Shown piece by piece: positions 1 through 19,541 of a stretch of 24,471 nt of DNA. Below the pieces are notes generated by a model that saw only the letters and a program-made list of their open reading frames with translations, was not told the DNA's origin and did not search any database. Position numbers and translations under genes: made by a program. The stretch is from IMG/VR virus record IMGVR_UViG_3300030106_005397, positions 1-24,471 of that record. One strand, given 5' to 3'. Numbering within the stretch: position 1 is the first letter of the stretch; every line of letters begins with the position of its first letter. The stretch is from a virus.

Positions 1-429
1 GGTTGGCTCAAAAGTGGCACAGCCGGGAACTGAACAATGAAAAGGGACTACGTCATCACGACGTAACCCCTTGTCTTTACTTGGTGTCCAAGAACCAGCA
101 CAACCCTACCCCCACTACGCTCCCAACGTAGCCCGCATACCATAACGGGACACCCCCACCCCCCCAAAAATACAAAACCGTGTCCCGCTATACGAAAACC
201 AACCCACAAAACACACCCATCCTCGTACATACACAGTGTTCGTAAACAACACCCAAACACCAAAACACCAACGAACACCACACCTAACTACCAGCAAATA
301 CACACCTTAGAGTGTTCGGAACAAGACTTGCTAACCGAAATGAGAATTTGCTGCGATTTCTGGAAGGGTCAGGTTTTAGGAATCGGGGTCGCCGGTTCGG
401 TTCGTGATCTTCTGTCTTCCGGGTCCCCG
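1..429. other. Non-coding, strand-asymmetric A/C-rich region
   Basis: No convincing gene is present. From about 85 to 305 the + strand is made almost wholly of A and C with few G or T, including runs of C near 153-172. Short inverted repeats occur: 49-54/60-65 (TACGTC/GACGTA), 115-119/127-131 (CTACG/CGTAG), 146-153/180-187 (CGGGACAC/GTGTCCCG, loop of 26) and 419-423/426-430 (CCGGG/CCCGG). Reading frames exist on the - strand but look like by-products of the composition. The region lies upstream of the first control region and could be a replication origin, a transcription boundary or a genome-end segment. None of these is shown directly. Confidence 0.6.
146..187. repeat. Inverted repeat flanking C/A tract
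   Basis: Perfect 8-bp arms CGGGACAC (146-153) and GTGTCCCG (180-187) enclose a 26-base C-then-A tract. The single strand could form a hairpin with an unpaired C/A loop. No function is evident. Confidence 0.4.
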
Positions 430-1682: not shown

Positions 1683-1979
1683 ATGGTACGTAAAGTGACG
1701 AAAGCGACACGATCGGGGCGAACATTTACGATCGACATAGACGCGGAAGGGTACAGGGAGAACGGTGACCTGGGGGTTTTGGGTTCTTATACCGCGACGT
1801 TTACGCTGGGTGCCTTGGGGCCGAATCTGGAGCGGCTGGAGCGCGTTTACCCAACATCGGGAATAGTGGACACGGTCAACGAATACTCGCACGTGAGCGG
1901 AACAGACTGCTACGCGGCGTTCCTTGAACGTTTCACCATACACGGGGACAAGAGGACGGTTAACAGGGAGGTGGGTTAG
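1683..1979 (+). CDS. Hypothetical protein, 98 aa
   Basis: The start is set by a near-ideal Shine-Dalgarno, AAAGGAGGTGA (1667-1677), placed 5 bases before the ATG; the reading frame is open further upstream but has no such site. The protein begins with a basic stretch (MVRKVTKATRSGR), then looks mixed alpha/beta. No family is recognised. It is the first gene of the small-gene operon and its site predicts high expression. Its TAG stop overlaps the GTG of a possible 20-aa membrane peptide. Confidence 0.75.
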   Translation: MVRKVTKATRSGRTFTIDIDAEGYRENGDLGVLGSYTATFTLGALGPNLERLERVYPTSGIVDTVNEYSHVSGTDCYAAFLERFTIHGDKRTVNREVG

Positions 1980-3221: not shown

Positions 3222-3467
3222 ATGCCAAAGGATCTGATCACCGATCATGAGACACGGATAAGGAAGTTCTTCTTTAGGGGGATGCCAACCAACCAGTGGG
3301 CGGTGGAGGTGAGACGCACGTGGGACGATGGACACGGATACAAGGGGGACGCGTGGCGACCCGCCGCCCCCCACACATTCCCAAGCTACGAGGAAGCAGA
3401 AGCCTACCTAGAGGCGTTCAGTAACTACGGATCAATTCTCGACCTCCCCGATAGGAGGTCACGATGA
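3222..3467 (+). CDS. Hypothetical protein, 81 aa
   Basis: Ribosome binding site GAAGGAGG lies 8 bases upstream, inside the previous gene. The protein resembles a small alpha/beta fold: basic N-terminus, strand (WAVEVRRTW), then a helix with SYEEAEAYLEAF at about 54-66. No family is recognised. Its TGA overlaps the next ATG. Confidence 0.7.
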   Translation: MPKDLITDHETRIRKFFFRGMPTNQWAVEVRRTWDDGHGYKGDAWRPAAPHTFPSYEEAEAYLEAFSNYGSILDLPDRRSR

Positions 3468-4266: not shown

Positions 4267-4827
4267 ATGGACGTTCTTGTGGCATGCGAGACAAGCGGAG
4301 CAGTGAGGAACGCCTTTCGTGACAGGGGGCATGACGCTTGGTCTTGTGACTTGCTCCCGTCCGACAGATCGTCGGACTACCACATACAGGCTGACGCCCT
4401 TGAGGTCATACCGAGTAGGGCGTGGGACTTGGTGATTGCCCACCCGCCCTGCACACATCTGGCCGTGTCAGGGGCGAGATGGTTTAAGGATAAGATCCCA
4501 GAACAGAAGGCGGCACTGGCTTTCGTTAGGGACATTATGGACGCCATGGATACACACAGTCAGGCGTGGGCACTGGAAAATCCGGTCAGCATTATCAGCA
4601 CACGGATCAGAAAAGCCAGCCAGTATATACAGCCGTGGCAGTTTGGACACGGAGAAACCAAGAAGACAGGGCTGTGGTTGCACAACCTTCCCCTGCTGAT
4701 CCCAACACACATAGTCGAAGGGAGGGAGCAAAAGATCTGGAAGATGGGTCCATCTGAGGACAGAGGGAAAGAGAGAAGCAAAACATACACCGGCATAGCA
4801 CAAGCTATGGCGACACAATGGGGGTAG
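4267..4827 (+). CDS. C5-cytosine DNA methyltransferase-like protein, 186 aa
   Basis: The protein probably transfers a methyl group, or acts otherwise, at C5 of cytosine in DNA. The N-terminal VLVACETSG at 3-10 fits a SAM-binding motif I. HPPC (59-62) carries the candidate catalytic cysteine C62 of motif IV. EN at 104-105 fits motif VI, and QPWQFG (122-127) followed by GETKKTGLWL is typical of the short phage versions. At 186 residues it is much shorter than classical enzymes of over 300 and shows no obvious target-recognition domain, so specificity or activity may differ. The ATG is chosen for GGAAGGAGGTGA six bases upstream. It could protect phage DNA from restriction, or work with the downstream PP-loop protein. 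Confidence 0.7.
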   Translation: MDVLVACETSGAVRNAFRDRGHDAWSCDLLPSDRSSDYHIQADALEVIPSRAWDLVIAHPPCTHLAVSGARWFKDKIPEQKAALAFVRDIMDAMDTHSQAWALENPVSIISTRIRKASQYIQPWQFGHGETKKTGLWLHNLPLLIPTHIVEGREQKIWKMGPSEDRGKERSKTYTGIAQAMATQWG

Positions 4828-4829
4828 AC

Positions 4830-5102
4830 ATGCAGTATGGAGCACTAGGCCACACAGACAACGACCTGGACGAGGACGTTCGACTAGGTCGCCACACAGA
4901 GGAGGGACAAGAGATGGATCTGGATCAGTTTAGGTTCAAGAAGAATGGCAGGCCCAAGAAACCGATCGCTACCTTCAATACGGGGTGGCAGTTCTGGGAG
5001 TTCTGCAACGAGAATAGCCTCAACAAACAGCAGATCCTTCGCGCCCTAATCGACAGGTTCCTTAAGGAGCAGGGGGTTATCGTTGGAACCAAAGACCAAT
5101 GA
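4830..5102 (+). CDS. Small basic protein, possible DNA-binding, 90 aa
   Basis: Three in-frame starts compete: 4818 (overlapping the methyltransferase), 4830 (after GGGGGTAGAC) and 4914 (after GGAGGGACAAGAG, like other sites in this operon). I list 4830. The conserved-looking part is the last 62 residues: a basic FKKNGRPKKP tract resembling an AT-hook core, then helices with SLNKQQILRALIDRFLKEQG, ribbon-helix-helix- or HTH-like. It lies between the methyltransferase and the PP-loop gene and overlaps the latter by 20 bases. Confidence 0.6.
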   Translation: MQYGALGHTDNDLDEDVRLGRHTEEGQEMDLDQFRFKKNGRPKKPIATFNTGWQFWEFCNENSLNKQQILRALIDRFLKEQGVIVGTKDQ

Positions 5103-5868
5103 CCTAATCGTCGTCTGGTTTTCCTGTGGAGCCGCAAGCGCAGTTGCCGCACAGAAAACCTTGACGCGATACCCAGACTGCGAGGTGCGGGTTGTCAACA
5201 ATCCCGTGGCCGAAGAGGACGCCGACAACCAACGCTTCCTCAAAGATGTAGAGCAGTGGCTAGGGGTGCCCATAGAAACAGCCACGAACCCTAGGTATCC
5301 ATCGACATCTGCGGTGGATGTATGGGACAAGCGGAGTTACATGAGCGGCGTGGCGGGGGCACCTTGCACTGTCGAACTGAAAAAGGAAGCACGGCGCGAG
5401 TGGGAACTAGCACACAAACCAGATTGGCATGTGCTAGGCTTCACGGCCAACGAGCGGTCACGATACGACCGCTTTGTCTTGGGTGAGAGAGAGAACACCT
5501 TGCCTGTCTTGATTGACGAGGGCCTGACCAAGGACGACTGCTTCCGTTTACTAACCCGTGCGGGGCTTACTCTGCCTCGCGTATATCACCAAGGCTACCC
5601 CAACGCGAACTGTATTGGGTGTGTCAAGGCCACATCCCCCACGTACTGGAACCATGTCAGGACAATACACCCAGAAGTTTTTCAGGAACGGGCTACGCAG
5701 TCACGGTCCTTGGGTGCTAGGTTGGTCCGCGTCAGTGGAGAGAGGAGGTTCTTGGACGAGCTACAGCCAACCGACATAGGGAAGCCTATGAAATCGATGG
5801 ACATAGAGTGCGGGATATTCTGTGAGGAACGCCCTACACAGGGCGAACTTTTCAAGGAGGAAGCATGA
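5083..5868 (+). CDS. PAPS-reductase-like PP-loop protein, 261 aa
   Basis: This belongs to the adenine-nucleotide alpha-hydrolase / phosphoadenosine phosphosulfate reductase-like group. The PP-loop is SCGAAS at 14-19. The phage-type signature includes YMSGVAGAPC (C95) and FTANE (120-124). C177-x2-C180 (NCIGC) and C243-x3-C247 (ECGIFC) could together hold an iron-sulfur cluster or zinc, as in DndC and some tRNA thiolases. The reaction is unknown; sulfur transfer or nucleotide activation for DNA or RNA modification is possible. The start is inferred as TTG at 5083, with GGGGG 6 bases upstream; no in-frame ATG exists before the PP-loop. The stop overlaps the next ATG. Confidence 0.75.
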   Translation: MEPKTNDLIVVWFSCGAASAVAAQKTLTRYPDCEVRVVNNPVAEEDADNQRFLKDVEQWLGVPIETATNPRYPSTSAVDVWDKRSYMSGVAGAPCTVELKKEARREWELAHKPDWHVLGFTANERSRYDRFVLGERENTLPVLIDEGLTKDDCFRLLTRAGLTLPRVYHQGYPNANCIGCVKATSPTYWNHVRTIHPEVFQERATQSRSLGARLVRVSGERRFLDELQPTDIGKPMKSMDIECGIFCEERPTQGELFKEEA

Positions 5869-7426: not shown

Positions 7427-7598
7427 AACGAATGGGGAACCCAAGAGCAGCTGCCCTTACAAACCGGGGATGGCCGCTAGTTCATGGCACTCAGGGTGGA
7501 ATGAAGCAAACGAAGAGTTGTCTCATTGGGGGGCAAAGCCATCGCCTCCCATTCGGATAAATAGGGGAGGACAAAGATGGACGAGGAAAGAGAAGTAG
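7395..7598 (+). CDS. Ribosome-modulation-factor-like small protein, 67 aa
   Basis: The first 40 residues follow the pattern of RMF and related short proteins (GRKARTNG, then CPY at 20-22, then SSWHSGWNEAN at 29-39). RMF binds the 30S subunit and drives ribosome dimerisation in stationary phase; RMF-like peptides are frequent in phages, with unclear roles. The 40-67 tail is basic and unrelated. The ATG at 7395 follows GGAGGGG at 7384-7390; a GTG one codon earlier is possible. It overlaps the Rad52-like gene by 22 bases. Confidence 0.55.
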   Translation: MKPKVAGRKARTNGEPKSSCPYKPGMAASSWHSGWNEANEELSHWGAKPSPPIRINRGGQRWTRKEK

Positions 7599-8155
7599 CG
7601 GAGAGGTATTACCTGGACAAGTTGAAAGATCCGTTCCCGATTGAGAAGGTGAAGTATCGTCAGGGTCCGGGCGGTAAGCAACTCGCCTACATCGATGCGC
7701 GAGACGTGGCCGACAGGCTGGACGAGGTCGTCGGTCAGGCTTTCTGGCAGAACAGGTATACCTGCGTCAACGGTGTTACCGTCTGCGAGATCGGACTTAA
7801 GGTGGACGGGGAGTGGGCGTGGAAGGCAGACGGCGCACCGGAGACAACGATAGAAGCGGAGAAGGGTGCGCTTTCAGACGCCTTCAAGAGAGCGGGAGTA
7901 AAGTGGGGCATTGCCCGATACCTGTATGACGATGCACCTCCACCGCCACAGGAGCAACCACAACAGGAACCCCCGGCGTGGGTAACAGATTCCGGTGGGG
8001 AACAGGGGCATACCCCCCCATCAGAGAAGCAGATGAACTACCTGAGAAAGCTCCTGTCCTCAAAATCTGAGGCAGAGCGGGACAAGTTTATGCAGGGTCT
8101 TGGACCTAACCCATCGAAACAGGACGTGTCCAAGGCCATTGACCAACTCAAATAG
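7577..8155 (+). CDS. Rad52-like single-strand annealing protein, 192 aa
   Basis: Residues about 17-117 match the Rad52/22 core: DPFPIEKVKYRQ, AYIDARDVADRLDEVVG, the glycine/alanine turn KADGAPETTIEAEKGALSDAFKRAGVKWGIARYLY. Such phage proteins form rings on single-stranded DNA and anneal complementary strands, for recombination-dependent replication and end repair. Residues 118-150 are a Pro/Gln-rich linker, and 150-192 form a helical tail that may bind a single-strand binding protein. The ATG follows GGGGAGGACAAAG. With RusA downstream it makes a compact recombination set; an exonuclease partner is not visible here. Confidence 0.85.
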   Translation: MDEEREVAERYYLDKLKDPFPIEKVKYRQGPGGKQLAYIDARDVADRLDEVVGQAFWQNRYTCVNGVTVCEIGLKVDGEWAWKADGAPETTIEAEKGALSDAFKRAGVKWGIARYLYDDAPPPPQEQPQQEPPAWVTDSGGEQGHTPPSEKQMNYLRKLLSSKSEAERDKFMQGLGPNPSKQDVSKAIDQLK

Positions 8156-8246: not shown

Positions 8247-8507
8247 GTGGCTTACAGAGACTTTGTTGTTGAGACATACAAAGAAACAATTAAGAAAACA
8301 AGCCAAGCCATGGAGAAAAACCGGAAGCCGTATGGCGAGAACAAGCTGCCGCGCCTGTACCTCTTGGAGTTGTCAGGCGATACGGTCATCCGGGATTTCA
8401 AGCGGGTGTGTGAGGAGCGGGACCTGGTTATATCCAAGGTTGTGCGGACGATGTTGCGTGAGTTCACGGAGGAGTTCAATAACCTCCCGCCAGAAGAACG
8501 GTTCTGA
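8247..8507 (+). CDS. Ribbon-helix-helix-like protein, 86 aa
   Basis: A GTG start (VAYRDFVV) at 8247, after AAAGGA (8231-8236), keeps the gene downstream of the terminator. The frame is open further upstream through the GC-rich stem but has no binding site there; an ATG at MEKNRKPYG is another choice. The C-terminal part (about 52-78: DTVIRDFKRVCEERDLVISKVVRTMLREF) has the strand-helix-turn-helix pattern of CopG/Arc proteins. A role as a DNA-binding regulator of this sub-operon is inferred. Confidence 0.6.
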   Translation: MAYRDFVVETYKETIKKTSQAMEKNRKPYGENKLPRLYLLELSGDTVIRDFKRVCEERDLVISKVVRTMLREFTEEFNNLPPEERF

Positions 8508-8508
8508 T

Positions 8509-8835
8509 GTGAAACGTAACAAGCGGTTCGTTCAAGATGCGTGGTATCGGGACAAGGTGTTGGCACCGGAGCGTGACACGTGCGATATGTGCGGCATCAA
8601 GTTTGTGCGGGGCGACAGGATTGAGGGTCACCACACATTCGGGAAGCAGTGGAGGAAAAACTGCAAGAGCCATGAGCGCATACACGTAGACTTCAGGATG
8701 ATCAAGGTGCACTATGATTGCCACCAACAGGCACACGCCGGGGTCAACACTGACGAGGCAACCATAGAAACTCTGTTGGAGATCGTGGGCGACTGCGCCC
8801 TATCTGACCACTTGGAAAAGGCGGGGTATGTATAA
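8509..8835 (+). CDS. HNH-like zinc-binding nuclease candidate, 108 aa
   Basis: The GTG start lies just after the previous TGA (8505-8507). C25-x2-C28 (CDMCG) and H68-x2-C71 (HYDC) could bind a structural zinc. IEGHHTFG (38-45) supplies a catalytic-like HH pair, and C71-H72 with H76 follow. This order resembles HNH endonucleases used in phage recombination or packaging, but the central Asn is not obvious. It overlaps RusA by 8 bases, suggesting joint DNA processing. A non-catalytic zinc protein is the alternative. Confidence 0.55.
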   Translation: MKRNKRFVQDAWYRDKVLAPERDTCDMCGIKFVRGDRIEGHHTFGKQWRKNCKSHERIHVDFRMIKVHYDCHQQAHAGVNTDEATIETLLEIVGDCALSDHLEKAGYV

Positions 8836-9190
8836 GCTGCAATTAGAACTGAAGGGTAAGCTCCCGAAGATGAACACCTCCCACACACGGGGGAGACACT
8901 GGAGCGTGGGCCACAGAGAGGCTGAATACTGGCACAAGCGCGTGTGGGCAGAGATGCAGGGGAAGAAGCCCGATCGTCCCTTAAAACGGGCGACAGGCAC
9001 CTTCACGCGGCACTCAGCCAGGGAGCCTGACTTTGAGAACCTCGCCTACTCCTTCAAGGAGATCATCGATGCCCTCGTTAAGTTGGATATCCTGGAGGAT
9101 GACGCACCCACCAACCTGACCAGAACATACGGATGGGAGAAGGCCAAGCCATCCTCTGGCAAGGTCACCATACTACTGGAGGAAGTATGA
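8828..9190 (+). CDS. rusA: RusA-like Holliday junction resolvase, 120 aa
   Basis: RusA enzymes cut four-way DNA junctions as metal-dependent dimers. Visible family features are the KLPKMNTSHTR N-terminus, REPDFENLAYSFKEIIDALVK at 65-85 and LEDDAP at 89-94. The acidic cluster D68, E70, D81 and D91/D92 with K77 fits the active site. In E. coli RusA the second residue of the pair is Asp (D72), here Glu (E70). Its 120 aa equal the usual length. The ATG lies inside the HNH-like gene, and the stop overlaps the next ATG. It probably resolves branches made by recombination-dependent replication before packaging. Confidence 0.85.
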   Translation: MYKLQLELKGKLPKMNTSHTRGRHWSVGHREAEYWHKRVWAEMQGKKPDRPLKRATGTFTRHSAREPDFENLAYSFKEIIDALVKLDILEDDAPTNLTRTYGWEKAKPSSGKVTILLEEV

Positions 9191-9360
9191 TCAGCGAGAT
9201 CGACAAGTTCCTGGCCCCCCTGGTATACAGGGCACAGCTTCTGTGCGGGACAACCGTAGCCAAAGACATTCCTAACAAGGACAGACGATGGAAGAGGAAT
9301 ACAGGAAATACAGAGAGGAACTCGACGCACTCCACAAGGAGTACAGATTCAACCGAATAG
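9187..9360 (+). CDS. Hypothetical protein, 57 aa
   Basis: The ATG overlaps the RusA stop (ATGA) and follows GGAGGAAGT. Residues 1-35 look like a helix plus a short basic stretch. Residues 36-57 are Thr/Ser/Arg/Asn-rich and lie in the 73-bp overlap with the next gene, so they may be unconstrained. The coupling to RusA supports translation, but the long overlap argues for caution. Confidence 0.45.
   Translation: MISEIDKFLAPLVYRAQLLCGTTVAKDIPNKDRRWKRNTGNTERNSTHSTRSTDSTE
9284..9306 (+). repeat. 23-bp exact repeat, copy 2
   Basis: This is identical to 3754-3776 and spans the start codon (9288) of the next gene. In frame it reads MEEEYR. Confidence 0.8.
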
Positions 9361-9563
9361 ACAGGGTAGGCACAATCCCCAAGGACATCTTAAATAAACG
9401 GCGACACTTGTCGGGGCTGGTATACGAACATGCCCGGAAGAGGTGGCAGGCTGTGCCTGAAGACATTAAGATGCAGCTGCATTGGAGGGTGTCTGCGTTA
9501 AAAGGTAGCGTTCGATACCGCAGGCTGACACTTGTGCCAAATAAAATTCTTGACGAGGGCTGA
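9288..9563 (+). CDS. Hypothetical helical protein, 91 aa
   Basis: The ATG follows AAGGACAGACG. The protein is highly charged and helical: residues 1-20 (MEEEYRKYREELDALHKEYR) could be coiled coil, and a second helix spans about 33-60. No family is recognised. It closes the RusA-led gene run; the structured non-coding segment follows its TGA. Confidence 0.65.
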   Translation: MEEEYRKYREELDALHKEYRFNRIDRVGTIPKDILNKRRHLSGLVYEHARKRWQAVPEDIKMQLHWRVSALKGSVRYRRLTLVPNKILDEG

Positions 9564-9594
9564 CCCGTGGCCTATCTTGTCTATCGTGCGGCTG

Positions 9595-9600
9595 TATAAT
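9595..9600 (+). promoter_or_regulatory. Consensus -10 box of a candidate small RNA
   Basis: TATAAT is a perfect -10 hexamer. No good -35 lies 16-18 bp upstream (CTATCT at 9572-9577), so the promoter would need an activator or be weak. Transcription would start near 9607, leading into the hairpin and T tract ending at 9705. Confidence 0.4.
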
Positions 9601-9606
9601 TGGGAG

Positions 9607-9705
9607 ACACGTGCGAGGATATAGGTTTTAAGCCCTAGCCGACATACCTCCATGGGTTCCCTTTCTGGCCGCACAGTTAGAAAGAACGGCTAGGGTTTTT
9701 ATTTT
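9607..9705 (+). ncRNA. Candidate structured small RNA, about 100 nt
   Basis: The span runs from the predicted start after TATAAT to the T-rich tail and contains no gene. A closing stem, 9630-9641 with 9687-9698 (9 bp of CCCTAGCCG/CGGCTAGGG plus G-U and A-U pairs), encloses a 45-nt interior with an inner stem, 9661-9666 with 9679-9684 (CTTTCT/AGAAAG). The tail T5-A-T4 acts as terminator. It may be only the leader and terminator of the early operon. The presence of both a -10 box and a terminator favours a discrete RNA. Confidence 0.4.
9633..9705 (+). terminator. Terminator-like stem with T-rich tail
   Basis: CCCTAGCCG (9633-9641) pairs with CGGCTAGGG (9687-9695), followed by TTTTTATTTT (9696-9705). 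The long loop is itself folded. It ends transcripts of the upstream recombination genes and of the candidate small RNA. CCTAGCCG is shared with the 3' arm of the first terminator (1531-1538). Confidence 0.55.
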
Positions 9706-9714
9706 GTGTTGCGT

Positions 9715-9738
9715 CTCCCGCCGAAAGGCTAATGGGAG
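9715..9738 (+). other. Hairpin with GAAA tetraloop and 4-nt bulge
   Basis: CTCCC (9715-9719) pairs with GGGAG (9734-9738), and GCC (9720-9722) pairs with GGC (9727-9729) around a GAAA loop. TAAT (9730-9733) is bulged on the 3' side. GNRA loops plus bulges are typical of folded RNAs that make tertiary contacts. Confidence 0.5.
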
Positions 9739-9748
9739 GATGTGACAC

Positions 9749-9777
9749 GGGGGCAAGAAGGGGGGAATCTTGCTCCC
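9749..9777 (+). other. 10-bp hairpin with a G-rich loop
   Basis: GGGGGCAAGA (9749-9758) pairs with TCTTGCTCCC (9768-9777), with one G-U. The 9-nt loop AGGGGGGAA is almost all purine with six G in a row. It lies just upstream of the three-way junction. Confidence 0.55.
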
Positions 9778-9782
9778 AGTAA

Positions 9783-9860
9783 GGGTTGGCTCCGCTTGTT
9801 GTGGGGGAGCAACAGTTAGCGGTTTCGGAAATCCCGTAACCGTTAATGCGGAGCCAACCC
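9783..9860 (+). ncRNA. 78-nt near-perfect three-way junction element
   Basis: The stem P1 is 13 perfect base pairs, 9783-9795 with 9848-9860 (GGGTTGGCTCCGC/GCGGAGCCAACCC). P2 is 9797-9801 with 9810-9814 (TGTTG/CAACA). P3 is 9816-9824 with 9838-9846 (one G-U), then a T-T mismatch and CGG/CCG closing a 5-nt loop. Only single bases (9796, 9815, 9847) are unpaired at the junction. No T tract follows on either strand, so it is not an ordinary terminator, and no coding frame explains it. Whether it acts as RNA or as DNA is unknown. Confidence 0.6.
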
Positions 9861-9863
9861 ACA

Positions 9864-9957
9864 AATAAGAGTCGTTGCGTGGGGCTGGCGACTATAAACA
9901 AACGCCACCGGATCGGGCACGATACGCCGCACCGCTTTCCCGGCGGTTACTGGAGAG
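9864..9957 (+). other. Further structured leader before gene 9958
   Basis: AGTCG (9870-9874) pairs with CGACT (9889-9893), and ACCGC (9931-9935) pairs with GCGGT (9943-9947). GGCG (9887-9890) could alternatively pair with CGCC (9903-9906). No clear promoter is visible. The segment continues the run of hairpins that fills 9607-9893. Confidence 0.4.
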
Positions 9958-10203
9958 ATGAAACCCCAGGATGCGAAAGCTAGGGCGTCTTCTCCGGTAT
10001 ATTGTGTGGTCACGGACGCTGACCTTAAACGCCCGATCTTTGGGTGCGTGGATTGGGGGGTGCTTGTGGTTTATGCCTTGGAATCGGACTTGGAAGTGGT
10101 CTTACAGACGGAAGGACAATACGATGTCAGGAGCGTACGAGAAGTTTATCAAGACGCAAGTGAAGCAGAGTTTTTCAAGCGTGCTACAGAGAGCAGTAGA
10201 TAG
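9958..10203 (+). CDS. Possible small protein, 81 aa
   Basis: The ATG follows GGAGAG very closely (2 bases), a poor spacing. The sequence is protein-like, with hydrophobic strands (PVYCVVTDADLKRPIFGCVDWGVLVVYAL split by charged turns) and an acidic C-terminus. Its last 80 bases overlap the gene at 10124 in another frame, a long overlap for this phage. An alternative frame beginning at 9971 joins the downstream gene but gives a Trp/Arg-rich N-terminus without a binding site. No family is recognised. Confidence 0.4.
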   Translation: MKPQDAKARASSPVYCVVTDADLKRPIFGCVDWGVLVVYALESDLEVVLQTEGQYDVRSVREVYQDASEAEFFKRATESSR

Positions 10204-10444
10204 CAATCAACTTAGCAACGATGCCTGGATGCAAGCACTTAAGTGGGCAGACACTGCTTCCCTGGAAGAGATATCCAGTAAGGCTGCCAAGTGGACAAAG
10301 AGACTTGATGAACTGGAGGGTCCGCCGCCAGAGATAGATACCACCAGAGAACAGTTTATAGAGGGGTGGAGGACAACGGCAGAAAATGAGACACTGCTTA
10401 TGGATGAACTGCTAGGTAGGATCTACGATTCGATCAACTCGTAA
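10124..10444 (+). CDS. Hypothetical helical protein, 106 aa
   Basis: The ATG (MSGAYEKFIKTQVKQ) follows GGAAGGA (10110-10116), which decides this start over the open frame upstream. The protein is helical and acidic, with a predicted helical bundle and a tail TTAENETLLMDELLGRIYDSI. No family is recognised. It is the last rightward gene: its stop (TAA, 10442-10444) lies 22 bases inside the convergent endolysin gene, so the two transcripts are antisense there and no terminator separates them. Confidence 0.7.
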   Translation: MSGAYEKFIKTQVKQSFSSVLQRAVDSNQLSNDAWMQALKWADTASLEEISSKAAKWTKRLDELEGPPPEIDTTREQFIEGWRTTAENETLLMDELLGRIYDSINS

Positions 10445-10818
10445 TGAGGTAGGTCATCAAAATTATTATCCCTTACTTTCCAATCCCTATTCCAATCTCC
10501 ACCCCATCTCAGAATGACGCCATGCTGATCAGCAACGCCCATAACGTAACCAGCAAAATAATTAAAACGCTCTCTGTCAGTCCAATCGATAGGATACGGG
10601 ACCACATCCACGGCCAGAGAGGGTGACTGATTATGCCTGCTGTCAGGCCACTGAACGTGCGAACGGCCCGTTCTAAAAAGCTCATTCTGTGTTTCCTCGT
10701 CCCGGTATCCAGTTAGAACTGCACAGTCGAAAACCTTTACGACCTCATTCAACACTAGCTGAATACGGTCATCACACTCACTCAGCCTACGCAGTGAGGC
10801 GGTGCCAAATTTGGGCAT
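10423..10818 (-). CDS. M15-family peptidase endolysin, 131 aa
   Basis: The protein resembles phage D-alanyl or L-alanyl-D-glutamate peptidases (VanY/M15) that cut peptidoglycan cross-bridges for lysis. The zinc and catalytic signature is S60-R-H62 ... A69-x-D71 followed by VVPYPIDW, and D122-L-P-H125-Y-E127 near the end. Residues about 35-50 (LTGYRDEETQNELF) fit the family's R/Q substrate region. No signal peptide or membrane segment is present, so it needs the upstream holins for access. The ATG overlaps the previous TGA and follows GAGGAAA. Confidence 0.85.
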   Translation of the reverse strand: MPKFGTASLRRLSECDDRIQLVLNEVVKVFDCAVLTGYRDEETQNELFRTGRSHVQWPDSRHNQSPSLAVDVVPYPIDWTDRERFNYFAGYVMGVADQHGVILRWGGDWNRDWKVRDNNFDDLPHYELIES

Positions 10819-11189: not shown

Positions 11190-11341
11190 TCATCAGTCTG
11201 CTCGTTCTCTGCTCCAGCCCTCTGGGCCTTCCACGCGCTCTTTTTCTCGTAGGTCCATGGGCCACCTATGACCAGCCGCATGGCCTTCACGTCATTGACC
11301 CGTTCGATCTTGCCAGTTTCTGTGTTCCGTATGCACTTCAC
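11186..11341 (-). CDS. Small hypothetical protein, 51 aa, lysis cluster
   Basis: A GTG at 11341 overlaps the TGA of the holin gene (GTGA), and the frame ends in a TGA overlapping the ATG of the next gene at 11189. The peptide (KCIRNTETGKIERVNDVKAM, then RLVIGGPWTYEKKSAWK) is charged and well composed. Its IERVND and Y-x-SK-x-WK-like pattern looks like a small virion or assembly peptide. The exact fit by overlapping codons on both ends argues strongly that it is real. It carries two lysines next to Tyr31 and a soluble tail. Confidence 0.7.
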   Translation of the reverse strand: MKCIRNTETGKIERVNDVKAMRLVIGGPWTYEKKSAWKAQRAGAENEQTDE

Positions 11342-11742
11342 TTGCGCCTCGCTACACCGCGCATCTTCTCAAATGTTCTCAGCCCACTCATGCCAAGCAT
11401 GGCCGTAACGAGTTCCATCAGATACGAGGTGTCTATAGTCGGCAACTCTGTCCCGTCACCCCACGCAATCATAGCCCACTGGGCTACAGGCTGAACGACC
11501 ATCGACCACGCAATACCAACCCCACATACCCACCCGATAAACGGTCGCCAGCCAGCAACGAAAATGGATTTGTGCTGTGCCTCTGCGGCGTTGATCTCCG
11601 TCTGGGCCAGCATCACAGAGTTAGCCGCATCGACCAACTCCTTCTCCAGGGCTTCCTTGGCCCGTGCCCTCTCGTTCCCATTAGGGATACGGTCAACAAA
11701 TTTGTTGACGATGGGGCCTACTAAGCTGGCTAGTCCAATCAT
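11338..11742 (-). CDS. Holin of the 3TM / gene-transfer-release type, 134 aa
   Basis: The family signature is visible as AEAQHKSIFVAGWRPFIGWVCGVGIAW (53-79), which enters the first main membrane segment. A further segment lies around 79-95 and another near 108-121, before a basic tail (RTFEKMRGVARRK). The N-terminal helix (residues 1-20) is weakly hydrophobic. Holins of this type assemble in the inner membrane and open it at a set time to release the endolysin. Translation is coupled to the short upstream gene (ATGA), as no clear ribosome binding site precedes the ATG. Confidence 0.8.
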   Translation of the reverse strand: MIGLASLVGPIVNKFVDRIPNGNERARAKEALEKELVDAANSVMLAQTEINAAEAQHKSIFVAGWRPFIGWVCGVGIAWSMVVQPVAQWAMIAWGDGTELPTIDTSYLMELVTAMLGMSGLRTFEKMRGVARRK

Positions 11743-14901: not shown

Positions 14902-17766
14902 CTACCGCTCTCCTAGTTGTTGACGCAGTTTGGCTTTGGCTGTACGTGCAGCATCGCGCTCTGCATAAATACGAGCACGTTTACGACCTTCTACATCTAG
15001 AGTCATGGGCTTAATGCCTGTAACTTCAGAGGTCAAGAAGTCTTTAAATTGTTCCTCGCCTTTCTTAAACCTTTCCATGCCACGCAAAACTCTGGCAGCA
15101 GGCGGAGCTAACGTATCCAAAGCATATCGCATCCGCTTTGTTAATGACGTTACCTCGTCCCTCTCTCCAGGGAACCGTTCGATTTCGCGACCTAAGAAAT
15201 AAGAATATGGCCGCTTACCTGTCAGTTCCATAGGAAGCTTGATAGCAGGGGTAAGGCTACCAACAAAATCATCCCACCCCATTCTATTTAAATCCTGGAA
15301 CGGTAGGTTGGGGTTTAAGTATGTTGCCTTGCCTTTCTTCTTTATGGGAAGACGGGTAGCAAACATTTCTTCATAGTAGTCAGGCTCGTAAACACCTTCA
15401 AATTCCTGAGATATCTGCTCAAGGTTATTTTTAATCTTGGGGATCTGCATATACCACAAGCCCCTGTCTTTATACAGCGGCTTGGTAAACATAGACTCAA
15501 TCTGAAGAGGTATGTTCTTCCTCATCCAAGTGTAGAAAGGGATAACGCTCTTCAAAATATCCCGCTCAAAAGGTGTCAAGTCTTCATAGTCGAACAGATA
15601 CTTTTTGACGCTGGCAGCAGCCTCTTGCATTGCGTGTGCTTCTTTTTCGGTGTCTGACAAGTTTTTAAGGATGTCATCCTTTTCTATCTTTGCCAGAGTC
15701 TGTTCTTTCTTTGTTACGTAATGGGCGATCCTTGCATTGTTTTCCATGATCTGCCCCATCTGCCTGTTTGCTGCCATCACGCGAGTAGACAGAATGCGAC
15801 CAGGGATACTATACCGTTGAATGTCACGCCCCAACTCGACGCCGATTACGCCACGGCCTACAACACCTAGCCCCCGCATTTCAGCATAAAGTTTATGATT
15901 CTCTCTAAGTTGTTTATCTGAGATATTTTTAATATCCCGAAACCTTCTTGGCATACCACTGGCAAACTCCGCAGATATTTCCCCAACAGACCGTTGGATT
16001 TCTGCGGCCCTTGCATATCCTCCGTAGACGCCACCTACAGCATTGTTAAAACCATTAGACCACATATTCCGCATGTGGTATCCAAGGCTAAACAATGCCC
16101 CGCCTTTCCACAGTCCCTGCCAATCCCTTATCGTAGTAAACAGCTTGTCGAAGCTTTCGTTATTTGAAAACAGCCGCTGACCTTTTTCAAGGTCTTCTAC
16201 AATGGCAGAGGGAAGCATATACCAATCCCCCTTGCCCTTGTTGAGTTCCCTGAAATCGTAGCCCTTTTCAAAAACTCTTTGGAGTGCTTCGGGAGGATCG
16301 CCACCCGTCTTCTTCCACTTTTTAATCAAGGGGAAAACGTGCGCCCACCGATTATTTTCTCCTGCAACAGAAGCAAGGTCAATGGCAACGTCACTTTTGA
16401 AAACAGCCTCAATAAGTCGTCGCGATGTCCGAGCCTTTACTGACTCGTTCGACCTCATTGTCATCAGCTTTTTAATATCAAGTTCTATATCAGGCAGTCC
16501 CGCATTCAGCGCATCTTCCACTGTGTTGTAATTTCGCTCATACTGGAAAGGCTGCTTTGTTTCGTAGATAGATTTCTTCGGCACACCTTTTCTGGTTAAT
16601 TTCTGCCCAGCCGTAGTGCGTAAGGGAATATAGCCTAGGCCACCCTGGCTTTTTGAAAACTTCTTAAACTGAGCTTCATCTAGAAGCCCCCATTCTAAAT
16701 CTGTTTTAGCAATATCTTCGTCGAAGAAATCCAACACTTCCGTTGCTTTACGGATAACCTCTTGGCGTCTAGTTGGATCTTTTATTCCAGTAGCTACCGT
16801 CTGGTCTAAAGCCTTAACAAAATAGTCGTCACGCAGTAAGCGGTCTAACTCAGCCCTGCCTTTGCCTGCGTGAAGGGCAATAAGACGAAGCTCGTTTTCA
16901 GTAAGGCCAGACGTAAGTTCCTGTATCGCTAACCCAAAAGCATCTTCTTCTTCTGTTGCTTTTTTAAATGCCCTAGCAACCTGATCGGTATAACCTTCTT
17001 TTATCCCTCTTTCAGTTATACCAAAATCCCCACCGAACATATCATCAGAAAAACGGTCACGGCGCAGCAAGCTTAAATCACTGAACCGTTGCACACCTTG
17101 AGGCCTGAACGCTGCCTGCCTTATTTTATAGCCCGGAGAAAGAGCAGTGCCCAAGGTATCTTTAAGGCCGATGCCAGCCCTTGCAATGCCTCCTAGTCGA
17201 GAGTCTTCTCGCATCGCAGCGGCAGCAATTCGGGGAGCTACTGTTTTGCTAGTTATAAGTCCAGCTTTGGCTGCCCATCCACCAATAGGCAGGTAACTAA
17301 GTGGATCTATAGCTACATCCAAAGCAAAGCCTGCAATAGCCTGGCCCCAGGTTGCTTCGTCGCCGAGCCTCTCTGTTAATAGTTGGCTACCGCTTTTTAA
17401 GCCTTTGTATTTCCTGTCTTCGCTTTGAACAAACTGCTTGGCAGCTTCCGACAATGCTTGAGCAGGATCTCCTGATCCACGATAAATCTCATACGTATAG
17501 CCTAAAGCCGCCCTTCCGGGGCGGCCCAAGAGATCGAACGTCTTGGTCAGAAAACCTTCTTCTGGATTAAGCTCTTCATCCATCAGGTCTTCTTGCCCAA
17601 GCTTACGGAGAGCCTTGCGGACGCTTTCGGCTTCTGTGATGCCACCCTTCATGCTTGCGATCTGATATCTAGACAGACCGGGGATGCGGGGTAAGTCACC
17701 TATACTGGTAGACCTAGATTGACGTTTGGGTCCACCAGCAAAGCCGCTGCCAAAGCCGTTAGCCAT
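14902..17766 (-). CDS. Large internal virion protein, LPD38-like, 954 aa
   Basis: The sequence resembles the 'large polyvalent protein-associated' group (LPD38-like) found in phage virion proteins: FSLGYHMRNMWSNGFNNAVGG at about 558-578 and the SVIPFYTWMRKNIPLQIESM segment near 738-757. The rest is charged and helical; residues 1-25 are Gly-rich. No enzymatic motif is seen. It is probably carried in the capsid and ejected with DNA, or forms part of the ejection channel. Other options are a tape-like or scaffold role. The ATG overlaps the previous stop (TAATG). Confidence 0.65.
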   Translation of the reverse strand: MANGFGSGFAGGPKRQSRSTSIGDLPRIPGLSRYQIASMKGGITEAESVRKALRKLGQEDLMDEELNPEEGFLTKTFDLLGRPGRAALGYTYEIYRGSGDPAQALSEAAKQFVQSEDRKYKGLKSGSQLLTERLGDEATWGQAIAGFALDVAIDPLSYLPIGGWAAKAGLITSKTVAPRIAAAAMREDSRLGGIARAGIGLKDTLGTALSPGYKIRQAAFRPQGVQRFSDLSLLRRDRFSDDMFGGDFGITERGIKEGYTDQVARAFKKATEEEDAFGLAIQELTSGLTENELRLIALHAGKGRAELDRLLRDDYFVKALDQTVATGIKDPTRRQEVIRKATEVLDFFDEDIAKTDLEWGLLDEAQFKKFSKSQGGLGYIPLRTTAGQKLTRKGVPKKSIYETKQPFQYERNYNTVEDALNAGLPDIELDIKKLMTMRSNESVKARTSRRLIEAVFKSDVAIDLASVAGENNRWAHVFPLIKKWKKTGGDPPEALQRVFEKGYDFRELNKGKGDWYMLPSAIVEDLEKGQRLFSNNESFDKLFTTIRDWQGLWKGGALFSLGYHMRNMWSNGFNNAVGGVYGGYARAAEIQRSVGEISAEFASGMPRRFRDIKNISDKQLRENHKLYAEMRGLGVVGRGVIGVELGRDIQRYSIPGRILSTRVMAANRQMGQIMENNARIAHYVTKKEQTLAKIEKDDILKNLSDTEKEAHAMQEAAASVKKYLFDYEDLTPFERDILKSVIPFYTWMRKNIPLQIESMFTKPLYKDRGLWYMQIPKIKNNLEQISQEFEGVYEPDYYEEMFATRLPIKKKGKATYLNPNLPFQDLNRMGWDDFVGSLTPAIKLPMELTGKRPYSYFLGREIERFPGERDEVTSLTKRMRYALDTLAPPAARVLRGMERFKKGEEQFKDFLTSEVTGIKPMTLDVEGRKRARIYAERDAARTAKAKLRQQLGER

Positions 17767-19541
17767 TACTGAGTACTAGCTCCAAAAGTGTTTGAAAAGC
17801 TGGCATTGCCCTGCATTGAGCGTGCTCGCGCATTTTCATACTGTACAATTCTACGTTTTTCGTCATCAGAAAGTCCTTCCCACTCTTCATCTTTCATGTG
17901 GGGAGGTTTAATAGGTTCATCTTCTAATGGACCCATATCTTCTGGACGCAACCCTGCTATTTGGGCAAGCATATCATCTTGTTCACGGCCTGCGGGAGGA
18001 ACCCTAGGCGTCATACCAGGAATTTCATAAAGACGATCCGCAGCCCCATCACCATCTCTATCACTAGGAGTCGGCGAAACTGGTATTCTTGCTACGCCTT
18101 GAGTAAGCGGATCGATACCTCCGGGGGGTGCCTGCTCTTCTGGAGACATCGGCGTCATACGATTTTGCAACAATGCCTGACCTTCAGGAGTGTCAATAAA
18201 GTCAACTCCCTCTGGCTCTTCATAGGTTGGCGGTGCTCCCTCTATCTGTCCACGGGCATCACCAAACGCTTTGGCTCTTTCTCTCAAGAATGCCGCAGAA
18301 ACAGCGTCTTTCGACGGGTCGTCTTGAAACCTCTCTGGCATTCCCTGACCATCAAACAGCCCTTCAATGTCCTGATCTGTCGGCGTCATATCAGGAATAG
18401 CTTCAGGTTGCTCTCCAGGAACTCCGGTCATTGGAAGTTCAGGACGCTGTTCGGGAGTTGTAGGCTTAGGACGGACAAAATCAAGACCACTAGGATCTCC
18501 TATCCGCTGATCCGTTACTACATCTGTTTTATCCCTTCTTGCTGGAGCAAACTGATTAGCCAGTTCAGGCATAATTTGATCCAACTGCGGATCTTCTGGC
18601 ATCATATCAGGAATAGCTTCAGGCTGATCTTCGGGAACTCCCGTCATTGGAAGTTCAGGACGCTGTGCCGATTCAGGATCTGCCTCTTCGCCTCTTGGAC
18701 CGAAAATACTTCTTTTTCTAAAACTTGGACCTCTTCCAGGGACAGGAACTAGTCTAGGACGCCGCCTTGATCTTGGCGTTCCCTCGTCTTCTGATTCTTC
18801 TTCTTGTCCCGGCATGGGAAGCTGAAGTCCAGGTTGAGGCTCTTCAGGAGCCGAAGGCTCTTCAGGCGTTGTAGGCGTTTCATCTGGCTCTTCTGGAGGC
18901 GGCTCTCCAAAAGTATTTTCATAAGCATTAAATAGCGTAGGTATTGCCATACTTAAAAGCCCCGCCGCAAGGCCCATCCACCCTGGTTTTTTAGAAAGAG
19001 TCGGGAGCAATTTTTTAACCGCTCCCGGCAAAGCTTTAGGTGAACCCGCTGCCAACGAAGCACCACCTACAGGCACAAAAGGCCTACGAAAACGAGGGCC
19101 AACTGCTTTTGTTTCGCCGCCCATAACAGGGCCGGTATGAACAGCAGATTTAGGAAGAGTAGACCCACGTTTAGCAACGGCTCTTCGCGTAGCAACGGCT
19201 CTTCGCGTTGCGGGGGGGCCACCAATAGTTGCTGGACCTTTTTCTGGAGCCATAAACTTTCTGGCTGGAGCAACAACAGTTGCCAAACCAAGAGCACCAA
19301 AAAGCTCTGGCCCAAATGTTTCTTCTATAGAAGAAAGAGCAGAACCTAAAATACTTTTTTCTTCATCTGAAGTTTCAGGGTCTTGTATAGCTTCTGTTAT
19401 TTCTTTGGCCTGCCTTCTTGCTTCTTGCTGGCCCGTTTCGGTGGAAGTAAAGTGATCGAGCAATTCACTTGCTCCATACCATAAACCTGTTTTTGCAGCG
19501 AGTTTTCCTGCACCCGCTAAAAGTGCTAATGGTGCTGGCAT
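17766..19541 (-). CDS. Pro/Glu-rich virion protein with repeats, 591 aa
   Basis: Residues 1-205 are a folded-looking part with hydrophobic stretches (about 79-92 and 190-204) and two tandem ATRRAV copies. From about 210 to 540 the protein is low-complexity, rich in Pro, Glu, Asp and Gly. An exact-type repeat RPELPMTGVP...QPEAIPDM occurs at 294-315 and 366-387, 72 residues apart. SDRDGDGAADRL (493-504) fits a thrombospondin-3 or EF-like calcium loop (D494, D496, D498, D502). It is probably a flexible internal or ejected virion protein. No enzyme domain is seen. Ribosome binding site AGGGG. Confidence 0.65.
   Translation of the reverse strand: MPAPLALLAGAGKLAAKTGLWYGASELLDHFTSTETGQQEARRQAKEITEAIQDPETSDEEKSILGSALSSIEETFGPELFGALGLATVVAPARKFMAPEKGPATIGGPPATRRAVATRRAVAKRGSTLPKSAVHTGPVMGGETKAVGPRFRRPFVPVGGASLAAGSPKALPGAVKKLLPTLSKKPGWMGLAAGLLSMAIPTLFNAYENTFGEPPPEEPDETPTTPEEPSAPEEPQPGLQLPMPGQEEESEDEGTPRSRRRPRLVPVPGRGPSFRKRSIFGPRGEEADPESAQRPELPMTGVPEDQPEAIPDMMPEDPQLDQIMPELANQFAPARRDKTDVVTDQRIGDPSGLDFVRPKPTTPEQRPELPMTGVPGEQPEAIPDMTPTDQDIEGLFDGQGMPERFQDDPSKDAVSAAFLRERAKAFGDARGQIEGAPPTYEEPEGVDFIDTPEGQALLQNRMTPMSPEEQAPPGGIDPLTQGVARIPVSPTPSDRDGDGAADRLYEIPGMTPRVPPAGREQDDMLAQIAGLRPEDMGPLEDEPIKPPHMKDEEWEGLSDDEKRRIVQYENARARSMQGNASFSNTFGASTQ
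18384..18666. repeat. 67-bp imperfect repeat, 216-bp period
   Basis: Blocks 18384-18450 and 18600-18666 are nearly identical. The 216-bp period is 72 codons, so the reading frame is kept, giving the repeated RPELPMTGVP/QPEAIPDM peptide. Confidence 0.8.
19173..19208. repeat. Tandem 18-bp duplication
   Basis: AGCAACGGCTCTTCGCGT occurs twice without a gap (19173-19190, 19191-19208). It is in frame and gives the doubled ATRRAV peptide of the 591-aa protein. This is a probable recent slippage. Confidence 0.85.

Follow-up and report, generated by a model that had tools for sequence, protein, structure and literature searches.

What lies in the stretch of DNA on which two oppositely directed gene clusters of this virus converge? 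In the window (the whole stretch analysed, a 24,471-base virus record), plus-strand genes for a Rad52/Erf-like annealing protein (7577-8155) and a RusA-like resolvase (8828-9190), followed by an ORF at 9288-9563, lie to the left of a non-coding stretch, and minus-strand genes for an endolysin (10423-10818) and a holin (11338-11742), together with large ORFs, converge on it from the right of a single plus-strand gene, orf107. An earlier note on this DNA had described positions 9607-9893 as a non-coding block between early and late regions. Both parts of this description are borne out: the block falls within the non-coding stretch between the ORF at 9288-9563 and orf107, at the junction of the plus-strand early cluster and the minus-strand genes, and its small ORFs, including minus-strand frames of 78 and 74 aa, matched no family in a protein family search. 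ARAGORN found no tRNA in the block. Among the early genes, the window also carries a PAPS-reductase-like auxiliary gene at 5083-5868 on the plus strand (phrog_424, E 8e-42).

The block had been proposed to be a structured RNA, and its folding supports this. The five helices listed in the earlier note are all present, among them the 12-bp helix 9630-9641/9687-9698, as are the GAAA loop and bulge of the hairpin placed at 9715-9722/9727-9738, although the real helix is longer (9706-9722/9727-9748). The plus strand of 9600-9900 folds at -134.8 kcal/mol (z -5.75), with none of 100 shuffles as good, and the minus strand reaches z -4.27. When the whole window was cut into 250-nt tiles, two plus-strand tiles at this locus scored z -6.1 (rank 1 of 162) and -4.3 (rank 5), so that the strongest plus-strand folding of the window lies within this block. 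Of the 98 pairs on the plus strand, 15 are G-U; read from the opposite strand these turn into A-C mismatches, which argues for an RNA made from the plus strand. Rfam gave no match. Other strongly folding plus-strand tiles, at window 15901-16150 (z -5.3, and -4.4 on the minus strand) and 18901-19150 (z -4.8), lie inside large genes.

Three features had been overlooked: a three-way junction inside 9630-9698, a U tract at 9696-9705 and a promoter at 9550-9578. With these added, the locus reads as follows, where L013 and L112 are loci of two other phages described below and helix A is a predicted pairing between the leader and the top of P1b.

9550-9578 (+): predicted sigma70-type promoter; -35 TTGACG (9550-9555, overlapping the last codons of the upstream ORF), 17-nt spacer, -10 TATCTT (9573-9578)
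9585-9629 (+): leader of the predicted RNA, its start inferred from the -10 element; it opens with GUGCGGCUG (9586-9594), which supplies the 5′ strand of helix A
9630-9698 (+): P1 stem (9630-9641/9687-9698), enclosing hairpins P1a and P1b
9646-9649/9654-9657 (+): P1a hairpin, inside P1
9661-9669/9676-9684 (+): P1b hairpin, inside P1; covaries with L013
9666-9674 (+): UGGCCGCAC, top of P1b; would pair with 9586-9594 as the 3′ strand of helix A
9696-9705 (+): U tract TTTTTATTTT after P1, read directly; a U-rich tail is also present in L013 and L112
9706-9748 (+): H2 hairpin (9706-9722/9727-9748) beyond the U tract, bulged and capped by a GAAA loop; a hairpin stands at the matching place in L013
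9749-9777 (+): H3 hairpin (9749-9758/9768-9777) with a G-rich 5′ strand; the L013 equivalent is a GGGGGUAAG hairpin
9783-9860 (+): H4 three-way junction, z -7.5; form not conserved in L013
9870-9893 (+): H5 short hairpin (9870-9878/9884-9893), z -2.4; form not conserved in L013
10124-10444 (+): orf107, first gene 3′ of the block and candidate for read-through control; homologue at the same place in L013

A long G+C-rich stem with a U tract behind it makes an intrinsic terminator, which divides the 290-nt block at 9705. As modelled, 9550-9705 is a transcription unit of promoter, leader and P1 running into the U tract, whose own promoter and terminator are predicted to define an RNA of ~120 nt from ~9585 to ~9705. 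H2 to H5 are a block separate from this unit, beyond the U tract, of which H2 and H3 recur in L013. A single RNA of ~290 nt, as first proposed, is thus not supported; the second option then offered, a small RNA followed by a separate element, fits a terminator at 9705 with hairpins from 9706 to 9893 after it. The TATAAT from which the block had been thought to start is present at 9595-9600 but has no equivalent in L013, and 9550-9578 is the promoter instead.

Only one contig, L013, was found to share the gene order of the window (RusA 77% and orf107 59% identical). Folded alone, its intergenic region gives the same run of modules: P1 enclosing two hairpins, then H2 and H3 with more hairpins behind them. 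When MAFFT aligned it blind with the window, the letters of the P1 stem were kept and seven inner P1b pairs remained paired, four by substitutions in both partners. The two P1 strands are identical (11/11 and 9/9), whereas in the helix A strands just 2/8 and 3/8 positions match. A third element, in L112, lies 3′ of that phage's RusA gene and was first picked up merely as a promoter-plus-terminator unit; a DnaD-like helicase loader gene begins just beyond its U tract. In the window and in L013 the next gene after the element is orf107, which in the window starts ~420 nt beyond the U tract with other hairpins in between. The hexamer pattern and 17-nt spacer of the promoter recur in L013 (TTGAC, TATCTT) and L112, and the succession seen here of promoter, intrinsic terminator and codirectional gene is one that attenuators show. 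Two of the three elements found (window, L013, L112) come from phages that share synteny, and the three sequences are too diverged for MAFFT to produce a good joint alignment. Covariation, suggested earlier as a check on the RNA, is seen across the three phages for the first ~120 nt; H4 and H5 do not take the same form in L013.

Searches beyond these loci were negative. The P1 motif occurs in 0 of 14 inspected endolysin relatives (L002-L004, L011-L048), five of which have other genes at that place, and 80 loci of SNase relatives yielded no additional element. Two RusA relatives (L007 and L115) have structured intergenic DNA of another kind and no matching element, and a RusA search of genome contigs returned none. 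The pattern CCTAGCCG-N-CGGCTAGG had 59 matches in viral contigs, seemingly by chance except for L077, which is the L013 contig, and the P1 pattern had a single match in genome contigs, in a MAG, with neither promoter nor pairing. In the phage otherwise closest to the window (L008), positions 4583-4695 (+) hold a promoter (TTGACA-17-TTAAAA), a short hairpin RNA and a terminator, upstream of a terminase-like gene. L112 also has two intergenic copies (3261-3330 and 4370-4440) of a hairpin whose stem is CTTACAGATAA...TTATCTGTAAG.

The leader also has a potential partner inside the terminator. In the window, the predicted start of the transcript, GUGCGGCU (9586-9593), is complementary to GGCCGCAC (9667-9674) at the top of the inner hairpin P1b; the corresponding leader:loop pairs are GAACCCAC:GUGGGUUC in L013 and CGCCGUGA:UCACGGCG in L112. 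The complementarity is 8 bp in each of the three, with unrelated letters, and leader shuffles gave p 0.023 for the window, 0.00015 for L013 and 0.004 for L112. Because the pairing in the window is modest on its own (p 0.02-0.03), the claim rests on its replication in L013 and L112. For an RNA ending before the 3′ strand of P1, helix A is predicted with a mean probability above 0.97 in all three phages; in full-length ensembles its probability is 0.59 in the window, 0.68 in L013 and 0 in L112, where the full-length RNA is predicted to be entirely in the terminator form. In L013 and L112 the complementarity extends into the 3′ strand of P1b, which makes helix A and P1b mutually exclusive there. 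An alternative helix competing with the terminator is thus predicted in all three, and a pseudoknot holding both helices may form instead.

We then formulated the element as a descriptor: a promoter matching at least 9 of 12 positions, P1 of at least 10 bp, a U tract, and at least 7 paired leader:loop bases. Applied to 4.83 Mb of phage DNA (both strands counted), it keeps exactly the elements of the window, L013 and L112, and it keeps none in controls made from four block shuffles and one reversal of the same 4.83 Mb. Because the thresholds were set after the three elements had been seen, the absence of control matches counts for more than the recovery of the three. With the pairing requirement dropped, 21 unique promoter-hairpin-U-tract arrangements remain, among which these three have the strongest pairing between leader and inner hairpin. 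Separately, a phage related to the window's (L119) has at 8387-8560 (+), directly before a portal-like gene, a strong promoter and two tandem terminator hairpins complementary to each other (UGUGCAG:CUGCACA); this is possibly a late-operon attenuator, a weaker analogue that we do not count as a member.

The reading we tentatively prefer, to which we give close to even weight, is that the left unit is a conditional terminator of the phage, an RNA switch that would also yield the ~120-nt RNA. Transcription would start near 9585, and the 5′ end of the RNA would first pair with the segment ~80 nt downstream, forming helix A. As the 3′ strand of P1 emerges, P1 and its three-way junction could form and would have to displace helix A; once P1 has formed, the U tract would halt transcription near 9705 and release the short RNA. 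Where helix A persists, the polymerase would read through the second hairpin block into orf107 or, at the L112 equivalent, into the helicase loader gene. The same plan written in quite different letters in two other phages makes a selected RNA switch likelier than a random fold. Computation, and recurrence with different letters in three phages, support the predicted promoter, P1/P1b, terminator and helix A; from these we infer that helix A and P1 would compete in the cell, that read-through would be regulated and which genes would respond. Several points weigh against the switch: the modest significance of the pairing in the window, the all-terminator prediction for full-length L112 RNA, the ~420 nt with other hairpins that separate orf107 from the U tract in the window, and the small set of three elements, two of them from phages alike in gene order.

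Alternatively, the RNA might be a stable small RNA acting in trans, with its 5′ end in a pseudoknot with the P1b loop and its 3′ end held by P1; it could act on further transcripts, such as that same leader in an infecting relative, as in immunity of the P4 CI or P1/P7 C4 type. Its own promoter and terminator would suit such an RNA, and the linker of 20-40 nt between helix A and P1 is probably long enough for both to coexist. Identical P1 strands beside diverged helix A strands, a changing pair on a constant frame, form the pattern expected of a specificity determinant, and in the heteroimmune C4 RNAs of P1 and P7 just such a pair determines specificity. However, a second antisense target downstream was not significant in any of the three phages (p 0.30, 0.51 and 0.35), no C4 or other sRNA family of Rfam matched, and in L013 and L112 the pairing runs past the loop into P1b. 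We consider a trans-acting RNA unlikely, though worth keeping in view. In a bolder form, an antisense segment and its target would sit together on one RNA, and this rapidly changing pair would determine which relatives are silenced by switching a three-way-junction terminator; this would be an RNA-only code for superinfection immunity and a phage RNA family that has not been described. Because a second downstream target was not found (p 0.30-0.51), this immunity reading stays a minority hypothesis, and we hold it to be doubtful.

A plain intrinsic terminator of early transcription, with the leader:loop complementarity incidental and the later hairpins a spacer, would explain why P1 and its U tract form a good terminator at the end of the plus-strand early cluster, and the modest significance of the pairing in the window suits it; what makes it rather unlikely is that all three phages have a promoter of identical spacer length immediately upstream, and that the complementarity recurs with different letters. 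The consecutive hairpins up to 9893 and the similar run in L013 would accord with the single large RNA proposed earlier, which we judge improbable given the U tract that follows P1 and the differing form of H4 and H5 in L013. Least probable, to the point of being very hard to credit, is a DNA-level or minus-strand feature such as an origin, a packaging site or a late-operon terminator: inverted repeats do stand where the gene clusters converge, but the G-U pairs, the stronger plus-strand z score and a U tract on the plus strand only all speak against it. Leader-peptide attenuation was rejected, as the short ORFs differ between the phages.

Attenuators and the late leaders of lambda type (PR′/6S RNA) consist of a promoter, a leader, competing helices or a leader terminator, and genes. 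The present element has the same layout, but a three-way junction sits within its stem, it has no known leader peptide, ligand or antiterminator protein, and the late genes of the window, unlike those behind the lambda-type leaders, face the opposite way. Closest in mode of action are P4 CI/seqA, P1/P7 C4 and IsrK, but the tests made do not place the element among these. The CI RNA of P4 causes termination by pairing with two sites, seqA upstream of it and seqC downstream (PMC4825925). Here too an RNA segment is complementary to the upstream part of its own leader, with a presumed termination effect ahead of replication genes, but no significant second site of the seqC type was found downstream, the antisense segment is contained within the terminator stem, and there is no sign of a processed separate RNA. 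Both c4 antisense RNA and c4-a1b1 appear among listed motifs (PMC2864571); the partner of C4 is ant mRNA, which it binds in the region of the ribosome binding site (PMC12197685). Like C4 (RF01695), the element would be a small phage RNA with a loop complementary to sequence near its own promoter and with pair sequences that differ between relatives; it departs from C4 in that one complementary segment was found and in its predicted end at an intrinsic terminator, and the RF01695 model gave no match, whether at the gathering threshold or at E values of up to 5. IsrK of prophage Gifsy-1 occurs both as a short RNA that ends at a terminator and as an mRNA made by read-through (PMC4825925). The element resembles it in that one promoter would give a short terminated RNA and perhaps a longer read-through transcript, with alternative structures; in sequence and gene order the two are unrelated.

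Since the 5′ end has an internal partner, an HDV-like fold was also considered; it was rejected on two grounds, the position of that partner within P1b and the lack of any model match. Models of HDV-like and hammerhead ribozymes matched neither the window nor the L112 element. Away from that element, the L112 contig (IMGVR_UViG_3300025282_000212) carries an HDV-like self-cleaving ribozyme at 49-121 (+) (Rfam HDV-F-prausnitzii, 49.8 bits), and L119 (contig IMGVR_UViG_3300030117_007074), whose endolysin is 92% identical to that of the window, carries a Type II hammerhead ribozyme at 1739-1805 (-) (59.5 bits). Outside the hairpins and upstream of orf107, two blocks of primary sequence are conserved between the window (9918-9940 and 10013-10068) and L013, reading CACGATA..., CGGACGCTGAC...GCGTGG.TTGGGGGG; they are possibly remnants of a small coding frame. 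A search with a pattern for the conserved block upstream of orf107, whose gap bound was one base short of L013, returned no match.

RNA elements that exist as structure alone are hard to spot in environmental phages, since the sequence changes under a fold that is kept. The rule of a promoter followed by a 5′ end complementary to a loop inside the terminator held in three diverged phages with no false positives in the controls, and lends itself to a scalable search. If the proposed switch is real, it would be a control point at the level of RNA in phages known only from metagenomes, resembling the classical immunity RNAs of P4 and P1.
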